DNA of 64,000 nt, from NCBI GenBank assembly GCA_019636375.1, contig JAHBXS010000001.1, positions 806,001 through 870,000 on the forward strand. Reading direction: 5' to 3'. The translations under genes were made by a program, and so were the position numbers. The notes below the pieces were generated by a model, which saw nothing but the letters and a program-made list of their open reading frames with translations, had not been told where the DNA came from and did not search any database. The DNA comes from Pirellulaceae bacterium. Its GTDB lineage: Bacteria > Planctomycetota > Planctomycetia > Pirellulales > Pirellulaceae. This document shows positions 18,210-33,416 of this stretch, piece after piece (the stretch's first letter is position 1; every line of letters begins with the position of its first letter).

Positions 18210-21200
18210 TCACGGCTCATACGCACTCAGTCCTGAAATATCGCGGCCAGCGGCCCTTTTGGTGAGCAGAGGATAGAGATCGGCCATTAGAGCCAGTTCA
18301 GCTTGCGTGCGGGCTTTCCAGCCGAGGTCGAGCGGGGCCATGAGGTCGCTGAGTTGCTCGCCATCAAAAATCATGCGGTCGAGGATGCCGTCCACGAAGG
18401 TTTGCAGGGCGTCAGTGGCGAGATTGTGCTTCACAGCGATGGCGGCGAGTTCTTTGGTGTTTTTTTCGGCTTTGAAACGAGTGTAGCCGTCGCGGATGGC
18501 GGTTTCGCTCAGCCCCTCGCCCGCTTTGAGCGTGCCGATGTATTCGGCGATCTCATCCCGCTCGTTCATTAAATTGGCTTCCGCGCTGATCAGGCCGATC
18601 AGTTGCTCGCGAGTCATCTTGGACTTGCCCGGCCCCTTGGCGGAAAACTTGGTGATCAGCCCCATGATGTAGTCGTAATCAATGACGGCAGAGGCGAACA
18701 GAACGAACTCGAATTCCAGTTGATCGGCTGGATTGGCGGTGTCGGTCGTCTTCTGTTTTGGGTCGCGGAGCTTCTTGGCCGTTTCCAGATACTGGCCGCG
18801 AATACCGCGATGATTGTCCTCGGGCAAAATCTGCTGGATGGTTGCTTTGTTCTCGTCGGTCAAGTCGGTGTACTGGTCGAGCTGGGTCTTGAGCCGCTGG
18901 ACTTCCTTGAATTGCTCGCAGAACACAACCTTGGCGGCGTTGCCTTTCAAATTGGCGACATCCGAGGGGGTGCATTCAAGGCCCTGCGACTTCATGAAGT
19001 TGTCGAGCTTTTGTACGGCGGCTTCCAGTTTCTGGATGACGACGGGGGCTTTCTCCACCAGCCAGATTTCGCGGGCCTGGTCGCCAGTCTTTTCGCCGGA
19101 GAACAGCGCGATAGCGGCATCGACGGCTTCCTGCTGCTGGCGGAAGTCGAGGATGTTGCCATAAGGCTTGGTGGCGTTGAGCACGCGGTTGGTGCGGGAG
19201 AAGGCTTGGATCAAGCCGTGGTGTTTGAGGTTTTTATCGACGTAGAGCGTATTGAGATATTTGGAATCAAACCCGGTCAGCAGCATATCGACGACGATGG
19301 TGATGTCGATCTTGTGATGGGGGATTTTGGGATTGGCTTTGCGCAAATCCTCGTCCGGCCATTGCTGGTCTTTGATCCGTTTCTGCACGTCCTGGTAGTA
19401 GAGGTCGAACTCGGAGATGCGGTGATTGGTGCCGTAGGCGGCGTTGTAGTCGGCCATGATGGCTTTGAGAGCGGCTTTCTTGCCTTCGGGGTCTTCTTCG
19501 TTGTCGGCTTGCTCTTGGGGGAGGTCTTCCTGAATCTGCTTCACGTCGGGATTGCCTTCGGCGGGCGGGGAGAAGACGCAGGCGATGCTGAGCGGCCTAA
19601 AGTCGGGATCGGCGGCCTGTTTCTCGGCCTGCATGGTCTGGAACAGTCCGTAATATTCGATCGCGTCGTTAATGGATGCCGTCGCCAGAATCGCATTGAA
19701 ACGGCGTCCACCGGTCGCGGCATCGTGCTTGGAAAGAATTGCCTCGATAACGGCCTTCTTCGGGACGGTGGAGGGAACGTTTTGCCTTTTGCTCCCCGTA
19801 TTGTGGACCGCTTCCATCGAGCCGCGATGAAACCTGGAAATGGGCTCGGATACCTGGCCACTGTCGGCTGGGGTAACGGAGTCTTTGGGACTGATCGCTT
19901 CGGCGGCCTTGTAGTAATCGACATGGAACCGCAGGACGTTGCCGTCCTCGATGGCGTGGGTGATGGTGTAGGCGTGGAGCTGCTTCTGAAACAGGTCAGC
20001 CGTGGTTCGCATCGAGGCCTGAGTGTCCTCGATCTTCTGCTGAGTGGCGTTTTCGTCAAAGATCGGTGTACCAGTAAAGCCGAAGAGTTGAGCACGGGGG
20101 AAGAACTCTTTGATTGCCGCGTGGTTTTCGCCGAATTGCGAGCGGTGGCATTCGTCGAAAATAAAAACGATCCGTTTGTCACTCAACGGCTCCAGCATTT
20201 CCTTGTAGGTCTGCTGGCCGTTGCGAGCACGTTGCTTGTTGCGTTTGCTCCCTTCATCCAGTGCCAGACCGAGCTTTTGGATGGTGGTGACGATGACCTT
20301 GTCGGCGTAGTCTGTTGAAAGAAGGCGACGCACGAGGGCAGCGGTGTTGGTGTTTTCTTCGACGCAGCCTTCCTGGAACTTGTTGAACTCTTCGCGTGTC
20401 TGTCGGTCGAGGTCTTTGCGGTCGACAACAAACAGGCATTTTTCGATGTCCGGGTTGTCCTTAAGCAAGGTGGACGCCTTAAAGGACGTGAGCGTTTTGC
20501 CGCTGCCGGTGGTGTGCCAGATGAATCCGTTGCCGCTGTCCTCATGGATGCACCTGACCAGATGCTTCACGGCATAGACTTGATACGGCCGCATCATGAG
20601 GAGCTTTTGCTCGCTGGCGATTAGCACCATGTAGCGGCTGATGGTCGTGGCCAGCGTACATTTTGCGAGAAACGAACTGGCGAACTCGTCGAGGTGGGTG
20701 ATCTTCTTGTTCGCCTCGTCGGCGTGCTGGTAAACCGGCAGGAACCGCTCTTCGGCATTGAATGCGAAATGCCGGGTGTTGTTGTTGGCGAAGTAGTAGG
20801 TGCTGTCGCGGTTGCTGACGATGAACAGTTGCATGAAGCACAACAGCGTTTTGCCGTAACCGTTGCCCGGATCGTTTTTGTATTCGACGATCTGCTCCAT
20901 GGCCACACGCGGGTTGACGCCGAGCGATTTAAGCTCGATCTGCGTTACAGGAACGCCATTGATGAGCAAAATCACGTCGTAGCGGTGGTGGCTGTTGTTG
21001 GTGTTGATGCGAAGTTGGTTGACCACCTCAAAAGTGTTCTTGCACCAGTCCTTGATGTTGACCAGGGTGAAATTCAGAGGGGTCCCGTCGTCGCGAGTAA
21101 AGCTGTTACGCTCGCGAAGGGTGCAGGCGTTCTTGTATACGTCCGCTGTGATGATCTCGTCGAGCAATCGCTGAAATTCTGAATCGGTCAGTGTGACATC

Positions 21201-21335
21201 GTTGAGCGTTTCGAAATGCTTGCGGAAATTTTGTTCGAGAGTGGCCCGGTCCCGGATGTCGGGGCGGTAGTGATATTTAAGGTCCTGAAGTTTCGCGATC
21301 AGAGCGTCTTCCAGATGGCTTTCGGCTGAGGTCAT
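18210..21335 (-). CDS. hsdR: Type I restriction-modification system, restriction/translocation subunit HsdR
   Basis: 1041 residues, normal for HsdR. The N-terminal nuclease domain has YDVILLINGVPVTQIELK (Asp120, Glu134, Lys136 of the PD-ExK site). The SF2 motor follows with Walker A TTGSGKT (275-281), DECH box FDECH (394-397), LFGFTGTP (motif III) and later helicase motifs (LLTGFDSKYLNTLYVDK, QAFSRTNR). The C-terminal region is helical and docks to HsdM. It cleaves unmodified DNA after ATP-driven translocation. It is the first gene of the locus in transcription order; its 3' end has a diverged second copy at 17408-17493. Confidence 0.95.
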   Translation of the reverse strand: MTSAESHLEDALIAKLQDLKYHYRPDIRDRATLEQNFRKHFETLNDVTLTDSEFQRLLDEIITADVYKNACTLRERNSFTRDDGTPLNFTLVNIKDWCKNTFEVVNQLRINTNNSHHRYDVILLINGVPVTQIELKSLGVNPRVAMEQIVEYKNDPGNGYGKTLLCFMQLFIVSNRDSTYYFANNNTRHFAFNAEERFLPVYQHADEANKKITHLDEFASSFLAKCTLATTISRYMVLIASEQKLLMMRPYQVYAVKHLVRCIHEDSGNGFIWHTTGSGKTLTSFKASTLLKDNPDIEKCLFVVDRKDLDRQTREEFNKFQEGCVEENTNTAALVRRLLSTDYADKVIVTTIQKLGLALDEGSKRNKQRARNGQQTYKEMLEPLSDKRIVFIFDECHRSQFGENHAAIKEFFPRAQLFGFTGTPIFDENATQQKIEDTQASMRTTADLFQKQLHAYTITHAIEDGNVLRFHVDYYKAAEAISPKDSVTPADSGQVSEPISRFHRGSMEAVHNTGSKRQNVPSTVPKKAVIEAILSKHDAATGGRRFNAILATASINDAIEYYGLFQTMQAEKQAADPDFRPLSIACVFSPPAEGNPDVKQIQEDLPQEQADNEEDPEGKKAALKAIMADYNAAYGTNHRISEFDLYYQDVQKRIKDQQWPDEDLRKANPKIPHHKIDITIVVDMLLTGFDSKYLNTLYVDKNLKHHGLIQAFSRTNRVLNATKPYGNILDFRQQQEAVDAAIALFSGEKTGDQAREIWLVEKAPVVIQKLEAAVQKLDNFMKSQGLECTPSDVANLKGNAAKVVFCEQFKEVQRLKTQLDQYTDLTDENKATIQQILPEDNHRGIRGQYLETAKKLRDPKQKTTDTANPADQLEFEFVLFASAVIDYDYIMGLITKFSAKGPGKSKMTREQLIGLISAEANLMNERDEIAEYIGTLKAGEGLSETAIRDGYTRFKAEKNTKELAAIAVKHNLATDALQTFVDGILDRMIFDGEQLSDLMAPLDLGWKARTQAELALMADLYPLLTKRAAGRDISGLSAYEP

Positions 21336-21802: not shown

Positions 21803-21961
21803 TTACTCCCGGAATGCGAATCCATTAAGCGGGACTGTTTCGTTAGGGTCGCGGGGCGACAGGAAGTTTCCCGCCGCGTCATAGGGCATTATCGAAATTT
21901 CGTAGAGTTGGTCGATGGTATGCAGGGCTCGATCCGCTCTGCCATTGAGGGTTCGGTTCAT
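21803..21961 (-). CDS. Possible small protein or gene fragment
   Basis: 52 residues from ATG 21961 (MNRTLNGRADRALHTIDQLY), including YDAAGNFLSPRDPNETVPL, which looks like the middle of a globular protein. No family recognised and no clear ribosome-binding site. It could be the remnant of a longer gene. Confidence 0.25.
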   Translation of the reverse strand: MNRTLNGRADRALHTIDQLYEISIMPYDAAGNFLSPRDPNETVPLNGFAFRE

Positions 21962-22081
21962 GCACCCGGCGGCGTTTTGGAAATCGAATCTAGCGCGAGA
22001 GCGAAGCAGGGTAGGTCAACGAAAGCATCGCGTCTTTGGCGGCTCCAAGAGACCAGGGCCAAGAACATGGGGAAATAGCGA

Positions 22082-22153
22082 CCCCGCAAAAACAAAAAAC
22101 CCCGCGAATTGCGAGGTTTCTTGTATCCAGGTGGGCAGTGAGGGACTCGAACC
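22082..22153. repeat. attL: left copy of the 72-bp attachment core
   Basis: Identical over 72 bp to 33293-33364. It contains the last 22 nt of tRNA-Val (22132-22153) and the downstream hairpin terminator. Identity ends at 22154 (A here, C in the right copy), where element sequence begins. Confidence 0.95.
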
Positions 22154-22511
22154 ACCCTCAAAAACGCGGGGAAATGCGGGTATTTCGAATCCCGACAACG
22201 CCAAAAGCAACGCCAAGCCGTCAAAAGTTGCATCGATCATCCAACAACTTGAAACGCTCTCACCGGACCAACGCCAAGAAATTCTTTTCGCTCTGGTCAA
22301 GCTGACAACCCTCGACTCAAGCAGGGCGCAAGCCGTGTCGGAAGATCGGGAGCTTGAGGCGGTTTGGCGGCGGGCAGGTGGGGAGGCGGGAAGCAAGGCA
22401 TCCAGCATCGCGACCGATCCAGCGGACGATCCAGCGACCGATCCCGCAACCGACCCAGCGACCAGCGGTAAGTCAGCCAAACGCCGCAGGAAGGGGGTTG
22501 CCGTGACATAG
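22154..22511 (+). CDS. Met-less open frame; predicted C-terminal extension of the integrase in the circular form
   Basis: The frame entering from the attachment core continues 119 codons to the stop at 22509-22511 and contains no Met codon. The only conventional alternative start I see is a GTG at 22335, which would drop the helical part (IIQQLETLSPDQRQEILFALVKL). The repeats are 11,211 bp apart, a multiple of three, and the integrase frame through the right copy is the same. Joining the ends would fuse integrase residues 1-442 to this frame. The tail is low complexity (DPATDPATDPAT) and ends in a basic KRRRKG. This is inference from frame and position. Confidence 0.6.
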
Positions 22512-22602
22512 AACCAGAAAACCTTTCCTCTGGGCGGGAATTCCAACCGGCCAAGCGGGATACAGTCAACACGGCGAATCGGAAATTTTCCGACCGCCAA
22601 AA

Positions 22603-22634
22603 TTTTTCAACAGTTCAGTTTTTTCAACAGTTCA
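22603..22634. repeat. Tandem 15-bp direct repeat upstream of the first cargo gene
   Basis: Two copies of TTTTTCAACAGTTCA (22603-22617 and 22620-22634) spaced 17 bp apart, ending 22 bases before the ATG at 22657. They may be a regulator or replication-protein site, or simple slippage; no function is shown. Confidence 0.5.
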
Positions 22635-22656
22635 AATTTTTCAAAAGGTCCAAACC

Positions 22657-23343
22657 ATGAGCAACAACCACAGCAACAACAGCAGCAACCGAAATTCCAG
22701 CAGTCAAAATTCCAGCAGTCGAATCGGAAGCCAAGCGTTTGGGAGAGCAACCGCGCCGGCCAGAAAAGAAGTTTCCAAAGCGACTTCCAAGGCGGCTTCG
22801 AAGAATTCCAGCAAGGCCAGTAAGGCCAAGCAGCAAACAGGCAAGGGCGATGAATCGAAAACCTTTTCTCTGGTCGGGTCTGGGCTCCCCAACGCGGCTC
22901 GACCTTGGATCGACCCGAATCGGATCGAATCAGAGTCTCAAGGCGTAATTGATTGGATTTTTCAGGTCGAACATTTTATCATTACTGGCATCGAACAGCT
23001 TGCCGAACTCGCAACCCGAATCGATCAAGCCAGCGAAATGGCGGCGAAGTTTACCATCGGGACACGCGACGAACAGGACACGGAAGCGATGGAAGAGGCT
23101 GAAGCGGAAGCAGCAGCGGAAGCAGCAGCAGAAGCCGAACGGGCGGCCAAGGCGAAGCCAAGTCGGAAAGCATCCGGCCAAGGAAAGGATCAACCCAGCG
23201 ACATCGGAGACGGTGAGCAAGGATCGTTTGGGGATCAAGATTTTTCTAATCAGAATCAGAATGGAGTAGCATCGAATGAACTCGGGACAGACAGGTCGGG
23301 AAGTGGTAGTTCGCTTCAAATTGGCAGCGGACAACTCGAATAA
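22657..23343 (+). CDS. Hypothetical element protein, Ser/Asn-rich N-terminus and Ala/Glu-rich tail
   Basis: 228 residues. The first 65 residues are Ser, Asn and Lys rich and probably disordered. A short ordered part (WIDPNRIESESQGVIDWIFQ...EQLAELATRIDQAS) follows, then an Ala/Glu helix. An AGG purine stretch lies about 8 bases before the ATG. The 3' end overlaps the next gene by 68 bases in another frame. No family recognised. Its place before the tape-measure-like gene resembles tail-assembly chaperone genes by position only. Confidence 0.6.
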   Translation: MSNNHSNNSSNRNSSSQNSSSRIGSQAFGRATAPARKEVSKATSKAASKNSSKASKAKQQTGKGDESKTFSLVGSGLPNAARPWIDPNRIESESQGVIDWIFQVEHFIITGIEQLAELATRIDQASEMAAKFTIGTRDEQDTEAMEEAEAEAAAEAAAEAERAAKAKPSRKASGQGKDQPSDIGDGEQGSFGDQDFSNQNQNGVASNELGTDRSGSGSSLQIGSGQLE

Positions 23344-25273
23344 ATCCGCCGCGAATGAAGTCATTAAAGAGGCGGAACGCTCGCAAAAGCGGCTGTCCGA
23401 AATCGACAAGCAGCGAGCATCGGAGGCGGTGAAAGCCGAACGGATTCGGCAATCCGCTGCGGAAAAAGCGATTAAGGAAATCGAGCGCCAGGAAGATCGT
23501 GCGCATGATCGCCACCGCCAACGCCAACGCTCCATCGCAGCCGAAAACCGCAAGCAACGCGAACAAGACGCCAAAGAAACAGCAGCAGCCCAACGCCGCG
23601 CAGACCTCGAAGCGGATCGGCTGCATCGGCGACATCGAGAGCGGCAGCGTAGCATCGCTTCGCAAAATCGAAAGCAGCGAGAAGACGAAGTGCGGGAGAC
23701 GGAAAAAGCGGCTGCGGCGGCTGAAGCTGCCTGGACCCGTGCGAATACGGCTTCGTACAACGCACAGGTAAAGCTAAACAACGCCATTATGAGCGGTGGA
23801 CGCGCCGCCGTCCAAGTCGCTCGAAGCATCGCGTTAATCGGGATTGCCAGCGAAAAAGACATGGAAAAGGCGATTCGGGCTTTCGCCAAGATCGAAGCGG
23901 GGATTCAAATCGTTTCAGCGATTGCCAATGCGGTGAAGGCTGGTACCCAGGCTTGGCGGGCGTATCAAACGGCGGTGCTGGCGGCGGCTGCGGCGCAACA
24001 AGCTGCTTCTATGGCCGGGGGCGGTATCGGCCCTGGCGGTGCGATGCGAGGGGCGGCTGGCCGTGCGGCTGCTGGCGGGGCTGGTCGGGCTGCTGCTGGG
24101 GGTGTGCTTGGTGCGCTTGGAATGGGTGCGAGTGCTGCGGCGATGGGAAAAGGGGCGTTGTTCGCAGCGGGTGGGGCTGGGCTGCTTGCCGGTGGGGCTT
24201 TGGCCGGTGAGTCGCTCTACAACGCCGCGACCGGACGAACGCAAAACAACTCAGCCGACTTTCTCAGTAATGCGATGATTGGGGCAGCTCATTACTTTCC
24301 GAGAGGGGCTGAAACAATCTTTGGTTCTGCTGGCGATGCTTTCGGCGGTTGGTACATGGAGCCATACCGAAACGCTGCTGATTCCAAAGAAAAAGCTCGC
24401 AAGCAAAACGAAGCTCGACTTCGCAAGCTCGGAGCAATGGAGCAACAAGAACAATTCCAATCCCGCGCTCTTCAGCAATCCGCAGTTGCAAATTTTGCAT
24501 CGGGCGACATTGCAGGGACGAACGCGCGACGCGGATTGACCGGTGGGGCCGCAGATCGAGCGGAGGCAGAAGCCCGTTTGAAAGAAATGCGACAGCGCCA
24601 AACCTCAACGATGGGGCAAGCTGGAATCGCTGGCCGCGAGGGCGAAGCAATTTCTCAGGCCCGACTTGCATTCGCCCAGGAAGAGCTTCAGCTTCAGGCT
24701 CAACTGCGCGACGCCAAGATGACCCAGCATCGCGAAGAAATTTCGGCCATAGATAAGAATATTTCGGCACTCCAAAAAGCTCAGGCCGAAGCGGATCGGC
24801 TGTACGACAAAGAAACGTCGCGACTCCAGACAGCGGAGCAGCGGCTTTCGGCAATGGATGCGGCGGAAGTGGCTGCCCTTCGCAATTCACTGAAGACAGC
24901 TCAAAGCGGCGGGACGCTTGGGCGTGATCAACTCGACTTGATTCGCTCGGTCGGATTGTACGACGATGAAGTTGAAGAGCAGCAGCGAAAGCGAATTACT
25001 CAGCTGGGGGTTGATGACCTGCTTGCTCCAGTTCGCCAACGACAGGCCGATGCCAAGGCGGAACAGGATCGGCTAAAAGTTGAGCTACAGACGGAACTCT
25101 CGGCCAGGGTTAAGCTCGAAGCGGATACCGACGAACTGGCACAGAAGTTTGCTGAAGAATTGCAGCCGTTCTTGCTAGAAGTGAGAGAGCGGCAGATCGA
25201 GGCGCTTGAGGCGGCGATGGAGCGGCAGAGGAGAAATTCGGCAATGACTCAAAAGCAGGGGGAGCAACAGTAA
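23276..25273 (+). CDS. Tape-measure-like protein: coiled coil with Gly/Ala-rich hydrophobic centre
   Basis: 665 residues with GGAG 9 bases before the ATG. Residues about 10-150 form a highly charged coiled coil with an internal duplication (RHRQRQRSIAAENRKQRE at 79-96 and RHRERQRSIASQNRKQRE at 119-136). Residues 165-330 are hydrophobic and Ala/Gly rich (ARSIALIGIASEKDMEKAIRAF, then a Gly/Ala repeat), and a second coiled coil runs to the end. This layout is that of phage tail tape-measure proteins, which set tail length and help DNA entry. No other tail gene is recognised nearby, so the assignment rests on architecture alone. Confidence 0.5.
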   Translation: MNSGQTGREVVVRFKLAADNSNKSAANEVIKEAERSQKRLSEIDKQRASEAVKAERIRQSAAEKAIKEIERQEDRAHDRHRQRQRSIAAENRKQREQDAKETAAAQRRADLEADRLHRRHRERQRSIASQNRKQREDEVRETEKAAAAAEAAWTRANTASYNAQVKLNNAIMSGGRAAVQVARSIALIGIASEKDMEKAIRAFAKIEAGIQIVSAIANAVKAGTQAWRAYQTAVLAAAAAQQAASMAGGGIGPGGAMRGAAGRAAAGGAGRAAAGGVLGALGMGASAAAMGKGALFAAGGAGLLAGGALAGESLYNAATGRTQNNSADFLSNAMIGAAHYFPRGAETIFGSAGDAFGGWYMEPYRNAADSKEKARKQNEARLRKLGAMEQQEQFQSRALQQSAVANFASGDIAGTNARRGLTGGAADRAEAEARLKEMRQRQTSTMGQAGIAGREGEAISQARLAFAQEELQLQAQLRDAKMTQHREEISAIDKNISALQKAQAEADRLYDKETSRLQTAEQRLSAMDAAEVAALRNSLKTAQSGGTLGRDQLDLIRSVGLYDDEVEEQQRKRITQLGVDDLLAPVRQRQADAKAEQDRLKVELQTELSARVKLEADTDELAQKFAEELQPFLLEVRERQIEALEAAMERQRRNSAMTQKQGEQQ

Positions 25274-25734
25274 TGACCAGTTTCGATGATGATCGGTTTG
25301 ACAGTGGCTTTGAAGACGATTTCAGCGGCGATGATCGCGATGATGGCGGCGAACTCGATAACCTCGACAACCCCGACGAGCCCGAAGAAACCCGCGAAGA
25401 AATGCTAGAACGACTCTTCGACGAATGCGCGGCAGAATGGGACGCCGACGCCTACAATGCATGGAAACGGGCCGATCATCCAGAAGGAATCGAGGATCAT
25501 ATCAAGATCGTCGAAATTCCCCCGACCAAGGAAGGGTACGTCGCAAAATTTATGTCAACGGATGACGTCGGCCATTACTATTTGCGGGGCTGGTGGGCTG
25601 GTCGGTCCGAACTCTTTCGAGCCATGACAGAGGAATCGGAATCGTACATCCGTGAATCGATGGAATCGGAGGGTAAAAAGTACGATCCAACTTGGCATAT
25701 CTTGCCTGGACCGAATCAGGATGATCGAAATTAA
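25273..25734 (+). CDS. Acidic hypothetical protein, coupled to the tape-measure-like gene
   Basis: 153 residues. The ATG overlaps the preceding stop (TAATG) and a GGGGAG stretch lies 8 bases upstream, so translation is coupled. The first 50 residues are almost half Asp/Glu (DDDRFDSGFEDDFSGDDRDD). The C-terminal 100 residues look globular (YVAKFMSTDDVGHYYLRGWW). No family recognised. Confidence 0.65.
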   Translation: MTSFDDDRFDSGFEDDFSGDDRDDGGELDNLDNPDEPEETREEMLERLFDECAAEWDADAYNAWKRADHPEGIEDHIKIVEIPPTKEGYVAKFMSTDDVGHYYLRGWWAGRSELFRAMTEESESYIRESMESEGKKYDPTWHILPGPNQDDRN

Positions 25735-25762
25735 GTTTGAAATTTGAAGCGAGGCCCAGGCC

Positions 25763-26317
25763 GTGACAACAGATCGACATGACGCGAAGCCGGAAGGGGT
25801 GTCGAACGCGAGGCCGAAATCGAATCAATCGAAGTCGAATCGACCAACGGCCAAACGACCAGCATCGAAGCGACCAGCAGCAGCAACAGCAATGGCGAAA
25901 CGAGAACTTCCTTCTGGCCGGGCTCCTCTTCCTGGTCGGGATTCACGCGGCTTTTTCATCGCTGGAAATAAAGTCAGCTTGGGCTACGGTCCCAAGCCAA
26001 ACAAGCCGATCAAGCGGGACTTTCGGTTATCGCGAACAGTGATGACCCACTTTTTACGATGGCTCCGATTGAAAGTAAAAGCAGGGCAGCCGTTGCACCC
26101 CGACCAGGAAGTAGCTGACGCGATTCGCGAAGCTATACCGCCGATTCTGCGGCTGATTCTGTTTCACGCCATCGGGCGGATCGATCCAGGGCGGACGAAT
26201 CACCATTGCAAATCGGGCGTCGATGTTGGCTTGTTTGAAAAACTGTTGTTGACGATTCACGCGATTGATGCGGACGAACTGCGGCGGCAAGCCAAACCCG
26301 CCAAACATCGGGATTGA
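25763..26317 (+). CDS. Basic hypothetical protein of the integrative element
   Basis: 184 residues from GTG 25763. The first 75 residues are Lys/Arg/Ser/Pro rich and probably disordered. The second half is helical (VMTHFLRWLRLKVKAGQPLH, AIREAIPPILRLILFHAIGR, VGLFEKLLLTIHAIDADELR). It follows the acidic protein gene by 28 bases, so the acidic and basic proteins may interact, but this is a guess. No family recognised. Confidence 0.6.
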   Translation: MTTDRHDAKPEGVSNARPKSNQSKSNRPTAKRPASKRPAAATAMAKRELPSGRAPLPGRDSRGFFIAGNKVSLGYGPKPNKPIKRDFRLSRTVMTHFLRWLRLKVKAGQPLHPDQEVADAIREAIPPILRLILFHAIGRIDPGRTNHHCKSGVDVGLFEKLLLTIHAIDADELRRQAKPAKHRD

Positions 26318-26509
26318 CAACCGATTCCAGTCGCCTAGAATTAGACTCAACGTCGGTAATCCAAGGTAACGCAAGGCAATCGAGATCGGAAATTCAGGGC
26401 CGACGTTTTCAACGCTGCTTTTCCGAACTCCCATTTTTCACGCTCAAGCGGTTCTGTAGCACGTCGCTATTGACATCGCTCGCGTAGACTCTTTCAATGG
26501 GGCATTGCC

Positions 26510-26887
26510 ATGCAATCAGTTACACTTGCCTTTTCGGGCGTTCCGAAATTCTTTCGAATCAGTTGCCGGGAAGCATCGCAGCAACGCGAAGGCCGCGACT
26601 ATTCCAACCCAGGCTATCAGTTGATGCAACACGTCAACACCTTGATTCCGCACAATGCGGACAGTTCAACCGAGTGGCTGGAAGAAACCGACCAGCTTTA
26701 CCAGCTGTTTGACGAATCGAAAATCGATGATGCGGTTGAGTGGTTCAAGTCGCATTTTCCACAGTGCATGAACTTGATTCCCAAGCGGAGGCGGTGCAAG
26801 TTCATCGAAGGCGCCTATCGTCGATGGTTGTTTGAGAATGACTACGAAGAGCGGTTCGCAGATGAACTGTTTCGCAATCGAGCTTGA
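26510..26887 (+). CDS. Hypothetical protein of the integrative element
   Basis: 125 residues, soluble, with a helical C-terminal half (QLYQLFDESKIDDAVEWFKS, then CKFIEGAYRRWLFENDYEER). No family recognised. A hairpin with a T-tract follows at 26945-26998, so it is probably the last gene of the rightward run that starts at 22657. Confidence 0.55.
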   Translation: MQSVTLAFSGVPKFFRISCREASQQREGRDYSNPGYQLMQHVNTLIPHNADSSTEWLEETDQLYQLFDESKIDDAVEWFKSHFPQCMNLIPKRRRCKFIEGAYRRWLFENDYEERFADELFRNRA

Positions 26888-26944
26888 TTGATCGGCTAAA
26901 GGTTGATCGGTTTAAGTCTGGGTGATTGTCGATTCCAGATGACA

Positions 26945-26998
26945 ATGAACGGCGGTGAAGGTGGTTGAGCCGGAAAGGACAAGACTCACCGCCGTCAT
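26945..26998. terminator. Rho-independent terminator between convergent genes
   Basis: A 13-bp stem with one bulged base pairs 26945-26958 (containing CGGCGGTGA) with 26986-26998 (TCACCGCCG) around a 27-nt loop; on the + strand it runs into TTTTTT. It ends the rightward transcript. The stop codon of the leftward lipoprotein gene lies inside the right arm. Confidence 0.7.
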
Positions 26999-27441
26999 TT
27001 TTTCAACTTCTCAATTTCCGCCTCAAGCCGTTCCTTTTCTTCCTTAACCTTCCTTGCTTTTCTGCGCTGCTTTTGAACGATGCTGCAATTCTCGCATTGT
27101 TCAAAATGACTATCTAACAACTCCCCTAGTTCTTTCGAAAATCCAGGAACTTCTTCGACGCGTCGAAATAAGTGTGCTGAATCCTTTAATTCGGCAACCT
27201 TTGCAAGTTTCCAATCGTTTACCTTTCGGTCATTTTCTAAGCATTCCTCGACAGGAAACTCCCTTTCCAATCGCTCCTGCTCCTGCCTCTCAAGCTGATA
27301 AAGCTGAGCAAGTTCCAGCAACCTCTTTTCTTTCGCCTCGATACTATTCTGGCCGGACCCGCAACCGGTCAAAGTCAGCAGGATCATGCCGAACGCAAAT
27401 TGAGAAATGAGAGAGTTTTGAAGCTTAGGTCGAATGGCCAT
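26995..27441 (-). CDS. Predicted lipoprotein carried by the element
   Basis: 148 residues from the ATG at 27441 (MAIRPKLQN). A hydrophobic signal ends in the lipobox LTGC (LLTLTGCGSG), predicting lipid attachment and membrane anchoring. The mature part is a charged coiled coil with Cys residues (EECLEND..., HFEQCENCSIVQKQ). It is the only minus-strand gene inside the element and has its own terminator side. This isolated orientation suggests a moron-type cargo gene, such as one for superinfection exclusion, but there is no direct evidence of function. Confidence 0.7.
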   Translation of the reverse strand: MAIRPKLQNSLISQFAFGMILLTLTGCGSGQNSIEAKEKRLLELAQLYQLERQEQERLEREFPVEECLENDRKVNDWKLAKVAELKDSAHLFRRVEEVPGFSKELGELLDSHFEQCENCSIVQKQRRKARKVKEEKERLEAEIEKLKK

Positions 27442-27813
27442 GTTCTCACCAAATTGAGTTTGCGTCATTTACACGGAAAGCGAATGTTAAGGGGCGTCTC
27501 AAATCCCCAATTTAAGCAATTCCAACTATCGCCGGGAGTGGAATCAGGTGATTAAAGCCCGCCCAGGGAAAAGGTTTTCCAGCGTTGCAAGTCCGATTTT
27601 TCCCCGATTTTCTCAATACTTACTCTGTAATTCGCGGCTTTCACTCCCAAATCAGGGCTTTTCGAATTGACTAGAAAAAAAGTTGGGAAATTTTCCAACT
27701 TGTTTACAGAATCTATAAAAGTTCATTAACACTTTCGCGCGCAAGTCGTCATAATCTCCCCCCAAATCGCTCACGGCGTAGTGAGTAAAACACGGAAAAA
27801 CAAGGGCGAAACT
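27442..27813. promoter_or_regulatory. Divergent regulatory region with a 22-bp palindrome
   Basis: This AT-rich gap separates the leftward lipoprotein gene from the rightward HTH gene. A 22-bp palindrome at 27680-27701 (AAGTTGGGAAA paired with TTTTCCAACTT) is perfect except for one G.T pair. A repressor site is plausible because an HTH gene follows. No convincing -35/-10 pair was settled. Confidence 0.5.
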
Positions 27814-28152
27814 ATGACAATGGCAACGGTACGATCATCGACAAATCGAAAACAAGTTCGAAACCAAGCGACATCCAAAACCAAGTCGCGACCGCTGGCA
27901 ACGGTCAACAAGCGGACGCCGCGAAGCCGTCCAGTAGTTGAGGCGGCTCAAGCACTGCGCGAGCATGACCAGACGGCTACCGCAGTTGAGAATCTTGGAG
28001 CCCTGACCCGTCCAGTCGCCGCGCGTTACATCGGGGTTTGCGTCAGGACGCTGGACCGCCTCGGAAATGAAGGGCGGATTCGCAAGTGCAAGATCGGAAC
28101 GAAGACCGTGTACAAGCGGGCTGACCTCGATTACTTCTTGTCGAATCTGTAG
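27814..28152 (+). CDS. Excisionase/HTH_17-type DNA-binding protein
   Basis: 112 residues from ATG 27814; an in-frame GTG at 27781 would add 11. The basic N-terminus is followed by TRPVAARYIGVCVRTLDRLG and KIGTKTVYKRADLDYFLSN, a MerR-like winged helix as in excisionases and AlpA-type regulators. In an integrative element this position (ahead of replication genes) fits a recombination directionality factor or a phage-like regulator. It may bind the 27680 palindrome. Confidence 0.75.
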   Translation: MTMATVRSSTNRKQVRNQATSKTKSRPLATVNKRTPRSRPVVEAAQALREHDQTATAVENLGALTRPVAARYIGVCVRTLDRLGNEGRIRKCKIGTKTVYKRADLDYFLSNL

Positions 28153-28225
28153 GCGTTGATTCTGTTTTTCTTAGGTATGGAAATAAAAAAAGCCGTAAGG
28201 TTTTAAGCTCTGGCGGGCGAAAACC

Positions 28226-28255
28226 ATGACGGCGAATCGAAAGATCGTGAAATGA
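28226..28255 (+). CDS. Possible 9-residue leader peptide overlapping the primase start
   Basis: ATG 28226 opens a frame MTANRKIVK whose TGA overlaps the primase-helicase ATG as ATGA. The primase start itself has only a weak ribosome-binding site, so translation of this leader could deliver ribosomes to it. Short enough to be chance. Confidence 0.35.
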   Translation: MTANRKIVK

Positions 28256-31188
28256 ATTCTACCGTTTTAGTATCGAAAAATCAAACGAAATCAACGAAAA
28301 CAGCGAAGACCGGCCAAGGGAGATGCATCGATAAAGCCGACGTGCTACGTGCGGCGCGGGGGAAAGAAATTGAAATTCTTGTTAACGTCGCTGGAATACC
28401 GCGTGAGCTACTTGACCCCTCACGCGGTCATCCTTGCCCGAAATGCGGCGGAGTGGACCGCTTTCGTTTGGTTGATGGTGAAGCAGGCGCGGCGAGATGC
28501 AACCAGTGTAATCCCAAAAAGTGCGGCAGCTATCTGCAAGTCATTATGTGGATGCTTGGGGTTGATTTTCCAACGGCTCTCAGGCTTGTTGCTGAATACC
28601 TTGGCCTCGATTCGACCCCGACAACGCGACCAGCAGCGGCCAAAGCGAAACCCTCTTCTGGCCGGGCAGGATCGCAACCGCAGCAGTCGCAACCGCCAGC
28701 CAAACCAGCCAAACCACCGAACCCAAAAGCCCTTGAGCTTCGAACATGGAACGACACTCTGGCTACGTTGTTCGCAAGCAAGTTCAAGCCAATCAGCATC
28801 GACGGACTCAAGCGAGCCCACGCCGTGATGGCTAAGCACTACGGCCAGGAGGTTGTTGCGTTTCCAGCATGGGGGCCAGACCTCGACTCACAGCAGCCTA
28901 TCGGTTGGGCGATGCGGCGGCGCGATGGTAAAATCTTCAGTTGGAAATTGAAAGACGGGACGCAAAAACAAGCCAAAGTTAAGTTGTTGTATGAATCCAA
29001 GAATGGTGGGATTTGCTGCCCCGATCAAGTCCGACAGGCCGAAACGCTGCTAGTCCTTGCGGGTGTCTCAGATGCGGCTGCAGCGCTCAGCTTGGACGAA
29101 TTGCCGCAAAACTGGGCGGCATGGTCCGACTCTTGCGGCGAGTTACCGAACCCCAGCGAGTCGCTCTTGACCAACGCCAAAGATCGGGCTGTTGTTGTTG
29201 TGTTTGACTCAGACACCACAGGCCGAACAAACGCGGGAAAATTCGCCAACGCTCTGGCTGCGGTCGCGAAATCCGTCAAGGTCATTGACCTTTTCCCTGG
29301 CCGGGCCAGCGATGCGTCGGGGGAGCCTAAGGACTTTCGCGACTGGTTGACCAACGGCGGGACAGCGACGGAGCTAGTCGCGATGGTGGAAGCGGCGGCG
29401 GAATGGGAAGTTACGGAGCTACCCCAGAAAAAATCAAAAGGCATTGAGGGAGAAAAATCTGTCCTACTCACCCTCGACGAACACTTGGCAGCTACGCGAG
29501 TTATTGGACTCCTGGCAGACCTCGACGGCGAAAACGAGGTTTACCAGCGAGGCGGCAAGTTGGTTGGCATTGTCCCGGTCATCGATCCAGACCTACCGCC
29601 AGGGCTCAAAAAAATCAAAACGCTTGAAGTCCCAACGATTCGCGAGCGGATCACGTTAGCCGCAGAACTTTTTCAAAAGGTAAAAGTTGGGGAGGATTTC
29701 GAACATCGGCAAGTACCGCCCCCAAAATGGCTAGTCGATGCGGTTGCAACGCGCGGACATTATCCAGAAATCAAACCATTGGCCGGACTGATACAAGCCC
29801 CAACGATTCGACCGGATGGCTCGATTCTTCAAACGCCGGGATATGATCGACAGACGGGCTTGCATTATTCGCCTCTTCACGACTTTCCAACCGTCCCGGA
29901 ATTCCCGACCAGGGAAGATGTTGTTTCAGCGGCGGCGGAACTGGTAGACCCGTTCCGCGATTTTCCGTTTGCAGCTAACAGCGGGGAGCAGTCAGCGGGC
30001 GAATCGACGGAGGCGGCAAGCGAGCCCAACGCCAACGAAAACAGAGCGGCGGCTATCGCGATGGCTCTGACCATGATCGGGCGACCTTGTGTCGATGGCT
30101 GCTGCCCCATGATGGTCGTCACTGGCAACAATCGGGGCGCCGGGAAAACGAAAATTGTCGATCTAGCTTCAATGATCGCCTACGGACGCCCAGCCGCCAG
30201 GGAACGCTATTCCCCAGACCCAGAGGAAATGGGGAAGAAAATCACGACAATCGCGATGGATGCCCGCCCCGCCGTGAATTTCGACAATGCCACAGGTCAG
30301 ATCGGATGCCCTGCTCTCGATTCGGCCGTTACGGCTATCACTTGGCGGGATCGAATTTTGGGCAAGACAAAATCGATGGAAGAAGTCCCATTTAAAACGA
30401 TACTAATTACTACAGGCAACAACTTGACTTTTGGCAGCGACCTGGCCCGGCGAATTCTGACAATCCGCTTGAATTGCCAGCAAGAGAACCCGGAAGATCG
30501 ACAGGATTTCAAATACCCAAATTTGCTTGAACATGTCAAAGCCATCCGCCCACGATTGGCAGTAGCTGCCCTTACCATTTTGCGAGGTTATTTTTCGGCG
30601 GGCTGCCCATTGGCAAACGATGGAACATGGGGCAGCTTCGAAAGCTGGACGCGAGTTATTCGGGGCGCTGTCGTTTGGGCTGGGCTGGGCGACCCGTTGA
30701 ATGCCAGAAACGAGGCAAGGGAACAAGATGCCACAGCGACTACCCTCGGAATGCTGATTGGCGGACTGATCGAAGCCGGGGCCGACCAGGGAGTAGGTTT
30801 GACAGCGGCGGAAATTTGCGAATTTTCGCTTAACGTGCTCAACCCAGCCCCCAGCCTTACAGCCGCGCTGAACGAAATTTGCGGGTACCGGATCAACCCT
30901 AAGACAATCGGCAAGCATCTTTCGCAGTTTCGCGAGCGGGTTTTTGATGGAAAAAAAATCGCTTGTTACAAAGGGCGGGCAAATCTCAACTACTGGCGGG
31001 TGGTTAGTGTGGTTACTTTGGTTAGTGTTGCTAACCCCAGCCTATGCGTGAGGGGAAATTCTAATTCCTCTATTGATGCTACATGTAACCCGTATAGGGA
31101 GCGTGGGGAAACATACCCTGCAAACTCACCAAACCAACCAGACCAGGACGGACAATCGTTTTTCTTTGATGATTTTGACCCTGTTTAA
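28252..31188 (+). CDS. Primase-helicase of phage/satellite type (zinc ribbon, Toprim, AAA motor)
   Basis: 978 residues. A zinc ribbon is at 62-86 (CPKC...CNQC) as in DnaG and T7 gp4-like primases. A Toprim domain has FDSDTTGRTNAG with Asp319 and Asp321. A linker follows, then an ATPase with Walker A GNNRGAGKT at 625-633 and ILITTGNNLTF, a sensor-like strand, and LTIRLNC further on. The tail of the motor (IRGAVVWAGLGDP) resembles primase-helicases of satellites and plasmids. It should prime and unwind DNA at the element's origin, giving the element its own replication. The origin was not identified. Confidence 0.85.
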   Translation: MNSTVLVSKNQTKSTKTAKTGQGRCIDKADVLRAARGKEIEILVNVAGIPRELLDPSRGHPCPKCGGVDRFRLVDGEAGAARCNQCNPKKCGSYLQVIMWMLGVDFPTALRLVAEYLGLDSTPTTRPAAAKAKPSSGRAGSQPQQSQPPAKPAKPPNPKALELRTWNDTLATLFASKFKPISIDGLKRAHAVMAKHYGQEVVAFPAWGPDLDSQQPIGWAMRRRDGKIFSWKLKDGTQKQAKVKLLYESKNGGICCPDQVRQAETLLVLAGVSDAAAALSLDELPQNWAAWSDSCGELPNPSESLLTNAKDRAVVVVFDSDTTGRTNAGKFANALAAVAKSVKVIDLFPGRASDASGEPKDFRDWLTNGGTATELVAMVEAAAEWEVTELPQKKSKGIEGEKSVLLTLDEHLAATRVIGLLADLDGENEVYQRGGKLVGIVPVIDPDLPPGLKKIKTLEVPTIRERITLAAELFQKVKVGEDFEHRQVPPPKWLVDAVATRGHYPEIKPLAGLIQAPTIRPDGSILQTPGYDRQTGLHYSPLHDFPTVPEFPTREDVVSAAAELVDPFRDFPFAANSGEQSAGESTEAASEPNANENRAAAIAMALTMIGRPCVDGCCPMMVVTGNNRGAGKTKIVDLASMIAYGRPAARERYSPDPEEMGKKITTIAMDARPAVNFDNATGQIGCPALDSAVTAITWRDRILGKTKSMEEVPFKTILITTGNNLTFGSDLARRILTIRLNCQQENPEDRQDFKYPNLLEHVKAIRPRLAVAALTILRGYFSAGCPLANDGTWGSFESWTRVIRGAVVWAGLGDPLNARNEAREQDATATTLGMLIGGLIEAGADQGVGLTAAEICEFSLNVLNPAPSLTAALNEICGYRINPKTIGKHLSQFRERVFDGKKIACYKGRANLNYWRVVSVVTLVSVANPSLCVRGNSNSSIDATCNPYRERGETYPANSPNQPDQDGQSFFFDDFDPV

Positions 31189-31199
31189 TTTTTTTCAGA

Positions 31200-31829
31200 A
31201 TGGAGATTCTAAAAATGAGAAGAAAAAATTTTTCACTTCCCAACGATCAAAAGAAATTTTCAGCCGGACAGCCAGCAGCAAATTTTTCAACAGCGGAGCA
31301 ACTAGCAGCAGAACCAGCCGGATCGGTCCCGAAAGAATCCATCCCTAGCCGGACTCCCCCTCTGGCCGGTCCACCCCCAACCCAGCAAACCGAAGCCGCG
31401 ACCAAACCGAAACCGCAGCAGCCCGCCGTCGAATCGGCCAGCAAGTCGCCACAGCCCCGTATCGGCGGCTTAAACGGCTGGTTGCTCGCACCATCGGAGC
31501 CCAAACCCGAATCGTGCGTTACAGGGCAAATTTCGAATCGACGTGATGGCGGCGGCGTAGGCGGTGTACTGACTCCCCGACAGTATCGAGAACTTGCTGC
31601 GGTTTTTGAACTGAGGGAGCTTGGTAGGCAAAAACGGGAACGGCCAGCCAAGAAAAAACGGCTAGCCAAGAAAAAGCAACCAGCCGCGCCGGTGGTATTG
31701 AACCTGCAAATCACCTTGGACGAGAGCCAGTCTGCGAAGTTGGCAAAAATTTTTTCAACGATTGCCAACTCGCAAATACTTTCAGGAAGTTTTTCGAACT
31801 CGAAAGAACTCGCAAAAACTTGCCGTTAA
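31200..31829 (+). CDS. Hypothetical Pro/Lys-rich protein
   Basis: 209 residues; the real start may be the internal Met at residue 6 (MRRKNFSLPNDQ). Residues 40-100 are Pro, Ala and Ser rich. A conserved-looking core GVLTPRQYRELAAVFELREL follows, then a Lys-rich stretch and LNLQITLDESQSAKLAKIFS. It begins 12 bases after the primase stop, so it is cotranscribed. Function unknown. Confidence 0.5.
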   Translation: MEILKMRRKNFSLPNDQKKFSAGQPAANFSTAEQLAAEPAGSVPKESIPSRTPPLAGPPPTQQTEAATKPKPQQPAVESASKSPQPRIGGLNGWLLAPSEPKPESCVTGQISNRRDGGGVGGVLTPRQYRELAAVFELRELGRQKRERPAKKKRLAKKKQPAAPVVLNLQITLDESQSAKLAKIFSTIANSQILSGSFSNSKELAKTCR

Positions 31830-32036
31830 AATTTTTCGACTCAAAACTACTTGCAACTACTCGCAACGAAAAATTTCTCAGTCGCCAAACAGGAAGAAAA
31901 AAATTTTTCAATTTGGGTGGCAACAAGCCGAATCGGAATCGAACAGGCTAAAAAAATTTGATACAATCCAACCAACCAAAAAAAATGGACGGCTCACCCG
32001 CGAAGATGTTGCCGTCCATAAAATGGAGATTACGAC

Positions 32037-33383
32037 GTGAGTCTACAACAGATCAAAAGCAAGTCAAGCGGTAAAACCATCTACCGGTGTCAGCCACGAT
32101 TGGCGGGCGGGCAGCGGCCAACTTTCTACCTCGGAACCAACCGCGATTTTGCCAGAAAAGCTGCCAAGGGAATCACCGACTTGGCTCAGTCGGATAAGTT
32201 GAACATCGACCCCAGCCCCGAAACGAGAAGCTGGCTCGAATCGGTTCAAGATCGCTCGCTTATCGAAAAGTTGCACAGTTTCGGGTTGTGCCGTCTTGTC
32301 GAAGACCTTTCCTTGGCCGGGTTCGTTTCGGACTTCATAGCGGAAAAGGAGAGCGACTCGACCCCCTCAACGATCACAACATATCGCAACGTGCAGCGGC
32401 ATTTTGCAGCTTTCTTCGCTGAATCGGCTCGAATGACCGACATCACAACAGCGGATGCGGAACGCTTTTCCAAGTGGCTTCGAACCCCCAAGCCCAAAGG
32501 GGAAGGACTCAGCAGCAACACGGCCAGACGGCGAACCGGGATCGCTCGACAGATTTTTAATCGTGCGGTTTCGCTCGAATTGCTGGCCAAAAACCCGTTT
32601 CGGAATTGCAAGACCAGCCAGACCGCAGCGGCTAAACGATACATCACGGTTGCGGAAACCGAAAAAATCCTTGCCGTTTGCCCCGATTTAGAATGGCGGG
32701 CATTGTTCGCGATGGCTCGGTATCTGGGCCCACGTATCCCCAGCGAAATACAGTCGCTAAGCTGGGCGGACATCGACTTTGGCCGGGCGACGATCCTGCT
32801 TCGCAGTCCCAAAACAGCAAATCACGGACGCGACCGGCGGCTAGTCCCGTTACTTCCGGCGATTCGCAGCGAGTTAGCAGCTTTGATCGACCAACAGCAG
32901 GACAACGGCCAAAGCCAGCAGGAGCCCGGCCAAGATGAAAGCGGGCTTGTATTCGAACGACTTGCAAAGCATTCAAACCTTTCGACCACAGCCCGCAAAT
33001 ATGCCACGCGGGCGGGTATCGGCGAAATTGCAAAGTTCTGGAATGCTTTCAGGGCATCCGCAGCTTGTGACTTGATGGACCAGTTCGGACTTCGCCGGGC
33101 TTGCGGGTGGATGGGACATACAGCGGAAATCGCGCTGAAAAATTATTCGCTCACCAAAGCGACTGACTTTTCCGATGCGGGCGCTGTCGATTTTTCGGAA
33201 GCGGAATCAGCTTCGAAAGCCGTCGAAATTCCGGCTGAAAAAAGCAACGCCAAAAACAACGCCGCAGGGCATGTAGATAAGGGTGATTGCATCCCCGCAA
33301 AAACAAAAAACCCCGCGAATTGCGAGGTTTCTTGTATCCAGGTGGGCAGTGAGGGACTCGAACCCCCGACCCTCTCGGTGTAA
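32037..33383 (+). CDS. Tyrosine recombinase/integrase of the tRNA-Val element
   Basis: 448 residues from GTG 32037, which has GGAG about 7-8 bases upstream. An N-terminal arm and SAM-like core-binding domain (residues about 80-180) precede the catalytic domain. Catalytic residues seen are Arg233 (GPRIPSE), Lys259 (RSPKT), Arg339 (NAFRAS), His361 (WMGHT) and the nucleophile Tyr370 (KNYSLT). The gene runs through the right attachment core and stops 41 nt inside the convergent tRNA-Val gene. Its last residues (GSEGLEPPTLSV) are therefore tRNA-antisense sequence and change on excision. It should catalyse integration and excision at the tRNA 3' end. Confidence 0.93.
   Translation: MSLQQIKSKSSGKTIYRCQPRLAGGQRPTFYLGTNRDFARKAAKGITDLAQSDKLNIDPSPETRSWLESVQDRSLIEKLHSFGLCRLVEDLSLAGFVSDFIAEKESDSTPSTITTYRNVQRHFAAFFAESARMTDITTADAERFSKWLRTPKPKGEGLSSNTARRRTGIARQIFNRAVSLELLAKNPFRNCKTSQTAAAKRYITVAETEKILAVCPDLEWRALFAMARYLGPRIPSEIQSLSWADIDFGRATILLRSPKTANHGRDRRLVPLLPAIRSELAALIDQQQDNGQSQQEPGQDESGLVFERLAKHSNLSTTARKYATRAGIGEIAKFWNAFRASAACDLMDQFGLRRACGWMGHTAEIALKNYSLTKATDFSDAGAVDFSEAESASKAVEIPAEKSNAKNNAAGHVDKGDCIPAKTKNPANCEVSCIQVGSEGLEPPTLSV
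33293..33364. repeat. attR: right copy of the 72-bp attachment core
   Basis: Exact copy of 22082-22153. It covers the last 22 nt of the intact tRNA-Val gene and its terminator, so integration leaves the tRNA transcription unit complete. Confidence 0.95.
33309..33329 (-). terminator. tRNA-Val terminator
   Basis: Read on the minus strand, an 8-bp stem AACCTCGC / GCGGGGTT (one G.T pair) with a 5-nt loop is followed by six T. It lies 14 bases after the tRNA 3' end and is duplicated in attL. Confidence 0.8.
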
Positions 33384-33416
33384 ACGAGATGCTCTAACCA
33401 ACTGAGCTAACCGCCC
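33343..33416 (-). tRNA. tRNA-Val (anticodon TAC)
   Basis: 74 nt. The acceptor stem GGGCGGT pairs with ACTGCCC. There is a D-arm with AGCTCAGTTGGTTAGAGCA, an anticodon stem-loop TCTCG-TTTACAC-CGAGA giving TAC, and a T-loop TTCGAGT. The CCA end is not encoded. It is the attachment target of the integrative element, whose integrase gene overlaps it in antisense. Confidence 0.97.

Follow-up and report, generated by a model that had tools for sequence, protein, structure and literature searches.

The window, that is, the whole stretch of 64,000 nucleotides analysed here from a Pirellulaceae bacterium, carries an 11.2-kb element inserted in a tRNA-Val gene, and the attP of this element, as seen in the sequence, lies inside its own integrase gene, so that integration removes a conserved C-terminal domain from the encoded enzyme. 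This reading is based on a survey of related integrases, a profile of the removed domain, circular contigs from viruses, and a structure model. As far as can be judged from the sequences, the architecture is shown to recur: the in-frame domain is conserved in many relatives and at many tRNA genes, and uninterrupted genes are found in circular contigs. Taken together, an attP in the gene, a detachable tail, and a role of this tail in the circular state make up a picture that we regard as probable, with most of the weight on the architecture.

The Integrative Element and Its Target

The element extends between two 72-bp cores that are 100% identical (22082..33364, plus strand). Its left att core (22082..22153) comprises a displaced 3′ fragment of tRNA-Val and a hairpin region, and its right att core (33293..33364) is located within the integrase frame, where it occupies codons 419-443. 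The target gene, tRNA-Val(tac), was found intact by ARAGORN at 33341-33416 on the minus strand, and its 3′ end is overlapped by the right core. With a whole tRNA gene at one end, a tRNA fragment at the other, and an integrase between them, the stretch has the organisation of a tRNA-targeted integrative element. Profile matches on the plus strand identify an HTH_17 or excisionase-like gene (27781..28152) and a primase-like replication gene of the element (28252..31188). In addition, the element encodes a 665-residue protein (23276-25273), alanine-rich and coiled-coil-looking, which gave no Pfam or PHROGs match.

A strong minus-strand hairpin of -25.7 kcal/mol (33303..33335, z -5.6) with T-rich surroundings lies inside both the right core and the integrase frame, and it is also present in the left core. 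It is missing from the output of the consensus terminator scan. The hairpin is possibly the terminator of the tRNA gene, which would then travel with the att core and be translated as part of the integrase.

To the left of the element, a large gene (18210-21335) resembles by eye the R subunit of a type I restriction system. The flank at 21900-21990 resembles, also by eye, positions ~1090-1170 of the locus L003, the two lying beside different integrase sites of the same genome; the similar flanks are perhaps the remnant of a repeat-protein gene. L003 is part of one of two further partial integrase matches in this genome, namely L003 / L006 at a tRNA-Leu and L005 at a tRNA-Lys. In each of them the frame runs into antisense tRNA, and both have a remnant-like appearance.

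Short and Long Forms of the Integrase

As integrated, the integrase gene (32037..33383, plus strand) has a GTG start and encodes 448 residues, the last of which are read from antisense tRNA. The protein matches PF13102 and PF00589 above the cut-off and carries the PHROG annotation integrase. The initial annotation, made from the DNA letters, had described a frame that crosses the right core and stops in antisense tRNA, and had predicted that joining of the ends fuses the integrase to a frame at the left end of the element; both descriptions hold, and the joined cores give a long form of 561 residues. Codons 1-442 (32037..33362) are common to the two forms, as seen in the joined frame and in the alignment. 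The residues R233, K259, and R339 are invariant and Y370 is nearly invariant in an alignment of 21 rows (A2), and we take them to be the catalytic Arg, Lys, Arg, and Tyr of a tyrosine recombinase of the lambda Int type. All of these conserved residues precede codon 419, at which the core starts.

The distance of 11,211 bp between the cores, to which the initial annotation gave weight as a multiple of three, is correct as measured. It has no bearing on the fusion, since the reading frames at the two cores alone decide which frame results from joining, and the argument was dropped: among 40 elements, the distance modulo three is 0, 1, and 2 in 20, 9, and 11 cases, respectively.

The left core is followed on the plus strand by the orphan frame (22154..22511), identified as the C-terminal tail of the integrase by the joined frame and by an in-frame profile match. 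As had been noted, it is open without a Met codon: it contains 118 codons and a stop, with no ATG and two GTG codons. In the integrated state it is also open upstream into the flank, where an in-frame ATG occurs at 21915, outside the element. A structure model of the left frame, computed from 7 rows (pTM 0.38), agrees with the earlier impression that its first part is helical. The model shows helices at residues 24-34 and 37-79 (22224..22391, plus strand), with pLDDT >85 for residues 21-70. The following DPAT repeat and basic end (22392..22508, plus strand) are present as described and are modelled with low confidence, but they do not form part of the conserved domain. They are absent from a relative in the same genus, G093, which places the DPAT/basic extension outside this domain.

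The integrase of G093 is 58% identical to that of the window over the catalytic part, and its flank indicates that the element occupies the same locus, again at a tRNA-Val. The left end of this element is on another contig; the two ends have a 24-bp core in common, and joining them gives 467 residues. The tail follows the same pattern, so that of the two only the window tail has the DPAT repeat. G093 was absent from the family tail-profile matches listed.

The left frame gave no Pfam or PHROGs match at E 0.1. As a single query it is too weak, matching 6 of 149 genomes including its own; the E values in the remaining ones ranged from 7e-4 to 8e-3. A tail profile built without the window row matches the window at E 2e-6 in frame, compared with 0.2 in each other frame. 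This in-frame match, together with the same relation in related elements, indicates that the left frame is more than a chance opening.

Related Integrases in the Same Family

The survey comprised 84 integrases, the window's included, and drew on 80 loci from the same bacterial family that were picked for long contigs among the matches listed and are not a random sample. In 71 of the 84, the start of a tRNA falls in the interval that opens where the catalytic domain ends and closes 600 bp past the gene, and the tRNA is antisense in all 71. The integrase gene itself runs into antisense tRNA in 66 of the 84, under 24 tRNA labels, one of which is undetermined. An upstream repeat of at least 14 bp was found for 42 integrases, and 40 of them have an integrase frame that reaches the core without a stop. 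In the other two core-bearing cases, L061 and the second integrase of L066, the frame stops short of the core; the frame of the first of the two integrases of L066 extends into the tail with which the second element begins on its left.

In these 40 cases, the in-frame continuation after the left core has a median length of 62.5 codons, with quartiles of 57 and 67, whereas the medians of the other two frames are 14.2 and 12.0 codons. A length of 50-80 codons is reached by 32 of the 40 in-frame continuations versus 4 of the 80 other-frame stretches. The in-frame continuation exceeds both other frames in 37 of the 40, the exceptions being L050, L080, and L100; the exception of L050 is probably due to a wrongly chosen core. 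The left frame of L059 has 21 codons, and those of L058 and L074 have 43-45 codons and belong to another tail type.

A common pattern emerges from an alignment of 30 tails (A1), in which some rows are shortened at an end: a first helix that frequently has Trp at its end, a Leu-containing turn, and an amphipathic second helix, beyond which the tails extend with varied ends. Ten of the 40 core-open cases (L046, L050, L055, L058, L059, L074, L087, L104, L105, and L114) were left out of A1. Another alignment, A3, misplaced the window left frame and was consequently unused for modelling. Compared with Pfam, the 30 tails gave nothing beyond single stray matches, and the tail profile found no match in the PDB better than E 0.18. 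Leave-one-out tail profiles (E 1e-3) recognised the tail in frame in 30 of the 40 elements, in another frame in one (L050), and not at all in 9. Furthermore, all 11 closely related pairs of tail DNA have a pN smaller than pS, with dN/dS of 0.18 to 0.58; the pairs have members in common and are non-independent.

These data bear on whether the arrangement arises by chance, given that antisense tRNA frequently has one frame or another free of stops and that the left frame could then be random. Read-through into antisense tRNA is indeed common and by itself proves little. Chance is nevertheless contradicted by the frame-specific length, the common motif, the leave-one-out matches, and the purifying selection, and we reject it as extremely improbable.

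The left frame could also be a separate small gene with its own start. An ATG occurs in 20 of the 40 left frames, GTG or TTG is common, and the window frame has GTG at codons 61 and 117. However, the other 20 left frames are devoid of ATG, the start positions are varied where one is present, and the first GTG of the window comes after most of the helical part. The continuous genes in the circular contigs described below likewise contradict a separate gene, which is therefore rejected as very unlikely.

Spread of the Tail and Tail-First Search

At E 1e-3, the tail profile matches 110 of 241 genomes of the family, some of the matches being training rows, and at E 1e-4 it matches 50 of 294 genomes drawn phylum-wide. 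Sixty tail places were found in 59 stored loci. No in-frame integrase match was present within the fetched 1.5 kb for 59 of these places, of which 6 had a nearby integrase match in another frame; only one place, in L264, shares its frame with an integrase. Upstream of the 59 places without an in-frame integrase, residues typical of antisense tRNA were often seen by eye. A scan of named bacterial genomes led to three loci, two of which resemble contigs G093 C3 and G082 C208; these loci were left out of the later analysis.

Forty loci were also taken among the tail-profile matches listed, which are not a random sample. Sixteen of these tail-first loci contain an integrase match that extends as far as the catalytic domain does. 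The 24 loci without such an integrase include 10 shortened by a contig end and 14 with the full 19.9 kb; the latter may be larger elements, elements with lost integrases, or false tail matches, which cannot be told apart. Ten tail-first loci have both an integrase and a core, and the tail is in frame in nine of them, including L184, which is the same element as the training row L110. The sole out-of-frame case, L174, has an integrase split by a frameshift. Integrase and tail share one frame in L183, L186, and L187. In L166, L171, and L172, an integrase directly precedes another tail in a different frame, a mismatch that suggests tandem insertion of two elements.

Uninterrupted Genes in Viral Contigs

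Forty-two IMG/VR loci were found by a pattern of the catalytic domain, so that their selection is independent of the tail. Homologous free elements had been named in the initial annotation as the place where an integrase stopping before the left frame would speak against the fusion; those found here favour it, since two of them, L211 and L214, keep integrase and tail in one frame. Their circularity rests on terminal repeats in metagenome contigs. L211 (7,355 bp, with a 69-bp terminal repeat) carries an uninterrupted integrase gene of 505 residues that includes the tail. Within this gene, at codon 438 of 505, 22 bp are identical to the 3′ end of a tRNA-Val and are followed by the tail; the maximum match in 10 shuffles was 11 bp. 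L214 (7,437 bp, with a 123-bp terminal repeat) keeps the frame of integrase and tail intact across the contig ends, and its best tRNA-end match is only 10 bp, at the level of shuffles. L211 also encodes a head maturation protease, an HNH endonuclease, a terminase small subunit, a DnaB-like helicase, and two excisionase-like genes. The two contigs of ~7.4 kb may represent a phage satellite of Planctomycetes.

Tail and integrase are in one frame by profile in L195, L203, L219, and the pair L206 and L208, which has one identical gene, and by eye in L215, which has a 21-bp tRNA-Val match. The tRNA-end match of the uninterrupted genes is only 10 bp in L195 and L219, as in shuffles, and only slightly above shuffles in L203 and L206. 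Used as a lone query, the window integrase found no relative among the viral contigs. It also found no phage or plasmid record covering 80% of its length, any match being confined to 8 phage and 4 plasmid records.

In 13 of the 42 viral loci (L198, L212, L213, L216, L220, and L225-L232), several of which are near-copies, the integrase ends soon after the catalytic domain and has no tail. The remaining 21 loci are unclassed, as the frame is cut off where the contig stops, enters a tRNA, or goes on with no match to the profile; one viral locus, L233, gave no integrase match in the scan. In a tree of 54 rows, 12 tail-less rows are scattered, of which L045 and L068 are so labelled only from a gene stop before the tRNA. 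Their distribution needs at least 7 changes, 4 of them forced by well-supported branches, and tailed and tail-less states have therefore interchanged several times. Since some relatives are without it, the tail domain is dispensable to this type of enzyme.

The scattered tail-less relatives in virus contigs would fit a tail that is neutral for the reaction, the attP merely lying at the 3′ end of the gene, the long and short enzymes behaving identically, and the tail being kept, for example, for contacts in replication or packaging. The frame and the motif are, however, conserved at a wide range of tRNA targets and across many of the families in the phylum, which argues that the tail matters but leaves its task unspecified. 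We consider a neutral tail unlikely.

Structure Predictions

The long form of L211 was predicted with AlphaFold2 from an alignment of 25 viral-contig proteins (mean pLDDT 79, pTM 0.59). The integrase part of the model is confident. It is followed by a linker at residues ~391-460 with pLDDT of 28-57, which contains the att site, and by a helix pair at residues 469-479 and 482-501 with pLDDT of ~66-83. The best PDB match of the model is lambda integrase (1z1b, E 2.9e-11), which describes the fold of a relative and not of the window protein itself. The model depicts the L211-type long form as an integrase joined to a two-helix tail by a predicted disordered linker with the att site.

Mechanistic Considerations

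In the preferred reading, attP is situated within the integrase gene, where the DNA codes for a flexible linker that joins the catalytic domain to a small helical domain at the C-terminus. The circle thus carries an intact gene for the long integrase. When the element integrates at the 3′ end of tRNA-Val, the 3′ portion of the gene is displaced to the opposite end of the element and has no ATG of its own there, and the integrated integrase ends instead in a few residues read from antisense tRNA. Excision would restore the whole gene.

The short form presumably retains a complete catalytic domain and, if the element is mobile, would perform excision with the excisionase-like protein, because a single integrated element makes only that form. 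If the short form excises, the conserved tail must therefore serve the circular state, where it would most likely favour integration between attP and attB or oppose immediate re-excision. On the sequence data, the chances that the tail functions as such a switch between integration and excision are about even. The broader proposal of a phylum-wide class of bacterial integrases with a detachable directionality domain, in which the tail licenses integration and the tail-less enzyme with excisionase only excises, is put forward tentatively and with somewhat less assurance than an even chance.

The tail could instead serve as a tag for stability or localisation, the circle having little integrase because the long form is, for instance, degraded or tethered. 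SsrA-like tags act in this way on integration-dependent repressors of mycobacteriophages, and the same logic is known for repressors with attP inside the gene (PMC13314858); in addition, the tail is small, terminal, and attached by a linker that was modelled with low confidence. What is conserved, however, is a pair of helices rather than a short terminal tag, and it is the ends beyond the motif that vary. A tag function is thus judged to be rather improbable.

Relation to Known Systems

Lambda integrase is a tyrosine recombinase of the same fold, to which the L211 model gave its best PDB match. The attP of lambda lies outside its integrase gene, and lambda Int is not known to have a detachable tail.

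The nearest precedent is provided by the Myxococcus phages Mx8 and Mx9. In Mx8, according to PMC6070905, attP lies in the integrase coding sequence and integration provides a new 3′ end, giving a changed but active enzyme; a similar principle is reported there for Mx9. An attP in the coding sequence and a new 3′ end are likewise seen here in the sequence, whereas the removed piece is in our case a conserved domain across many elements, tRNA targets, and planctomycete families.

The suicidal integrases of the archaeal SSV type also have the site inside the gene, which integration splits. In that type, integration detaches the catalytic part and the resulting enzyme is regarded as inactive, a mode called exclusively archaeal in PMC8371274. 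The present integrases differ in that the conserved catalytic residues stay with the N-terminal piece.

In integration-dependent immunity of mycobacteriophages, attP lies inside the repressor gene and the phage and prophage products differ C-terminally (PMC13314858). The position of attP inside a gene is alike, but the gene considered here encodes an integrase and not a repressor. Furthermore, the Islander paper allows for integrases extending across attP and names Mx8 and SSV (PMC4383910). Among the matches listed in a literature search, which covered titles and abstract openings and had subscription papers mostly outside its reach, none described the arrangement in Planctomycetes, a result that does not prove its absence from the literature. 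What appears to be new is a conserved removable domain that spans a bacterial phylum and many tRNA targets.

Conclusions

If the proposed mechanism is true, these elements would have a self-setting control of direction that needs no regulator, since the C-terminus of the integrase would report the integrated or excised state of the element. Bacteria would thereby have a non-lethal equivalent of the suicidal integrases of archaea, in which the site lies in a linker between domains and the activity is set by the state of the DNA. It would also qualify the claim, published in PMC8371274, that integrases which disrupt their own gene are confined to archaea. The many tRNA genes concerned provide dozens of natural replicates for studying how an integrase chooses its direction, and a tail-controlled one-way integrase could serve genome engineering. 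For the planctomycetes themselves, the orphan tail marks the left ends of integrated elements and hence offers a way to find them, and the arrangement may account for truncated integrases and orphan frames in genome annotations.
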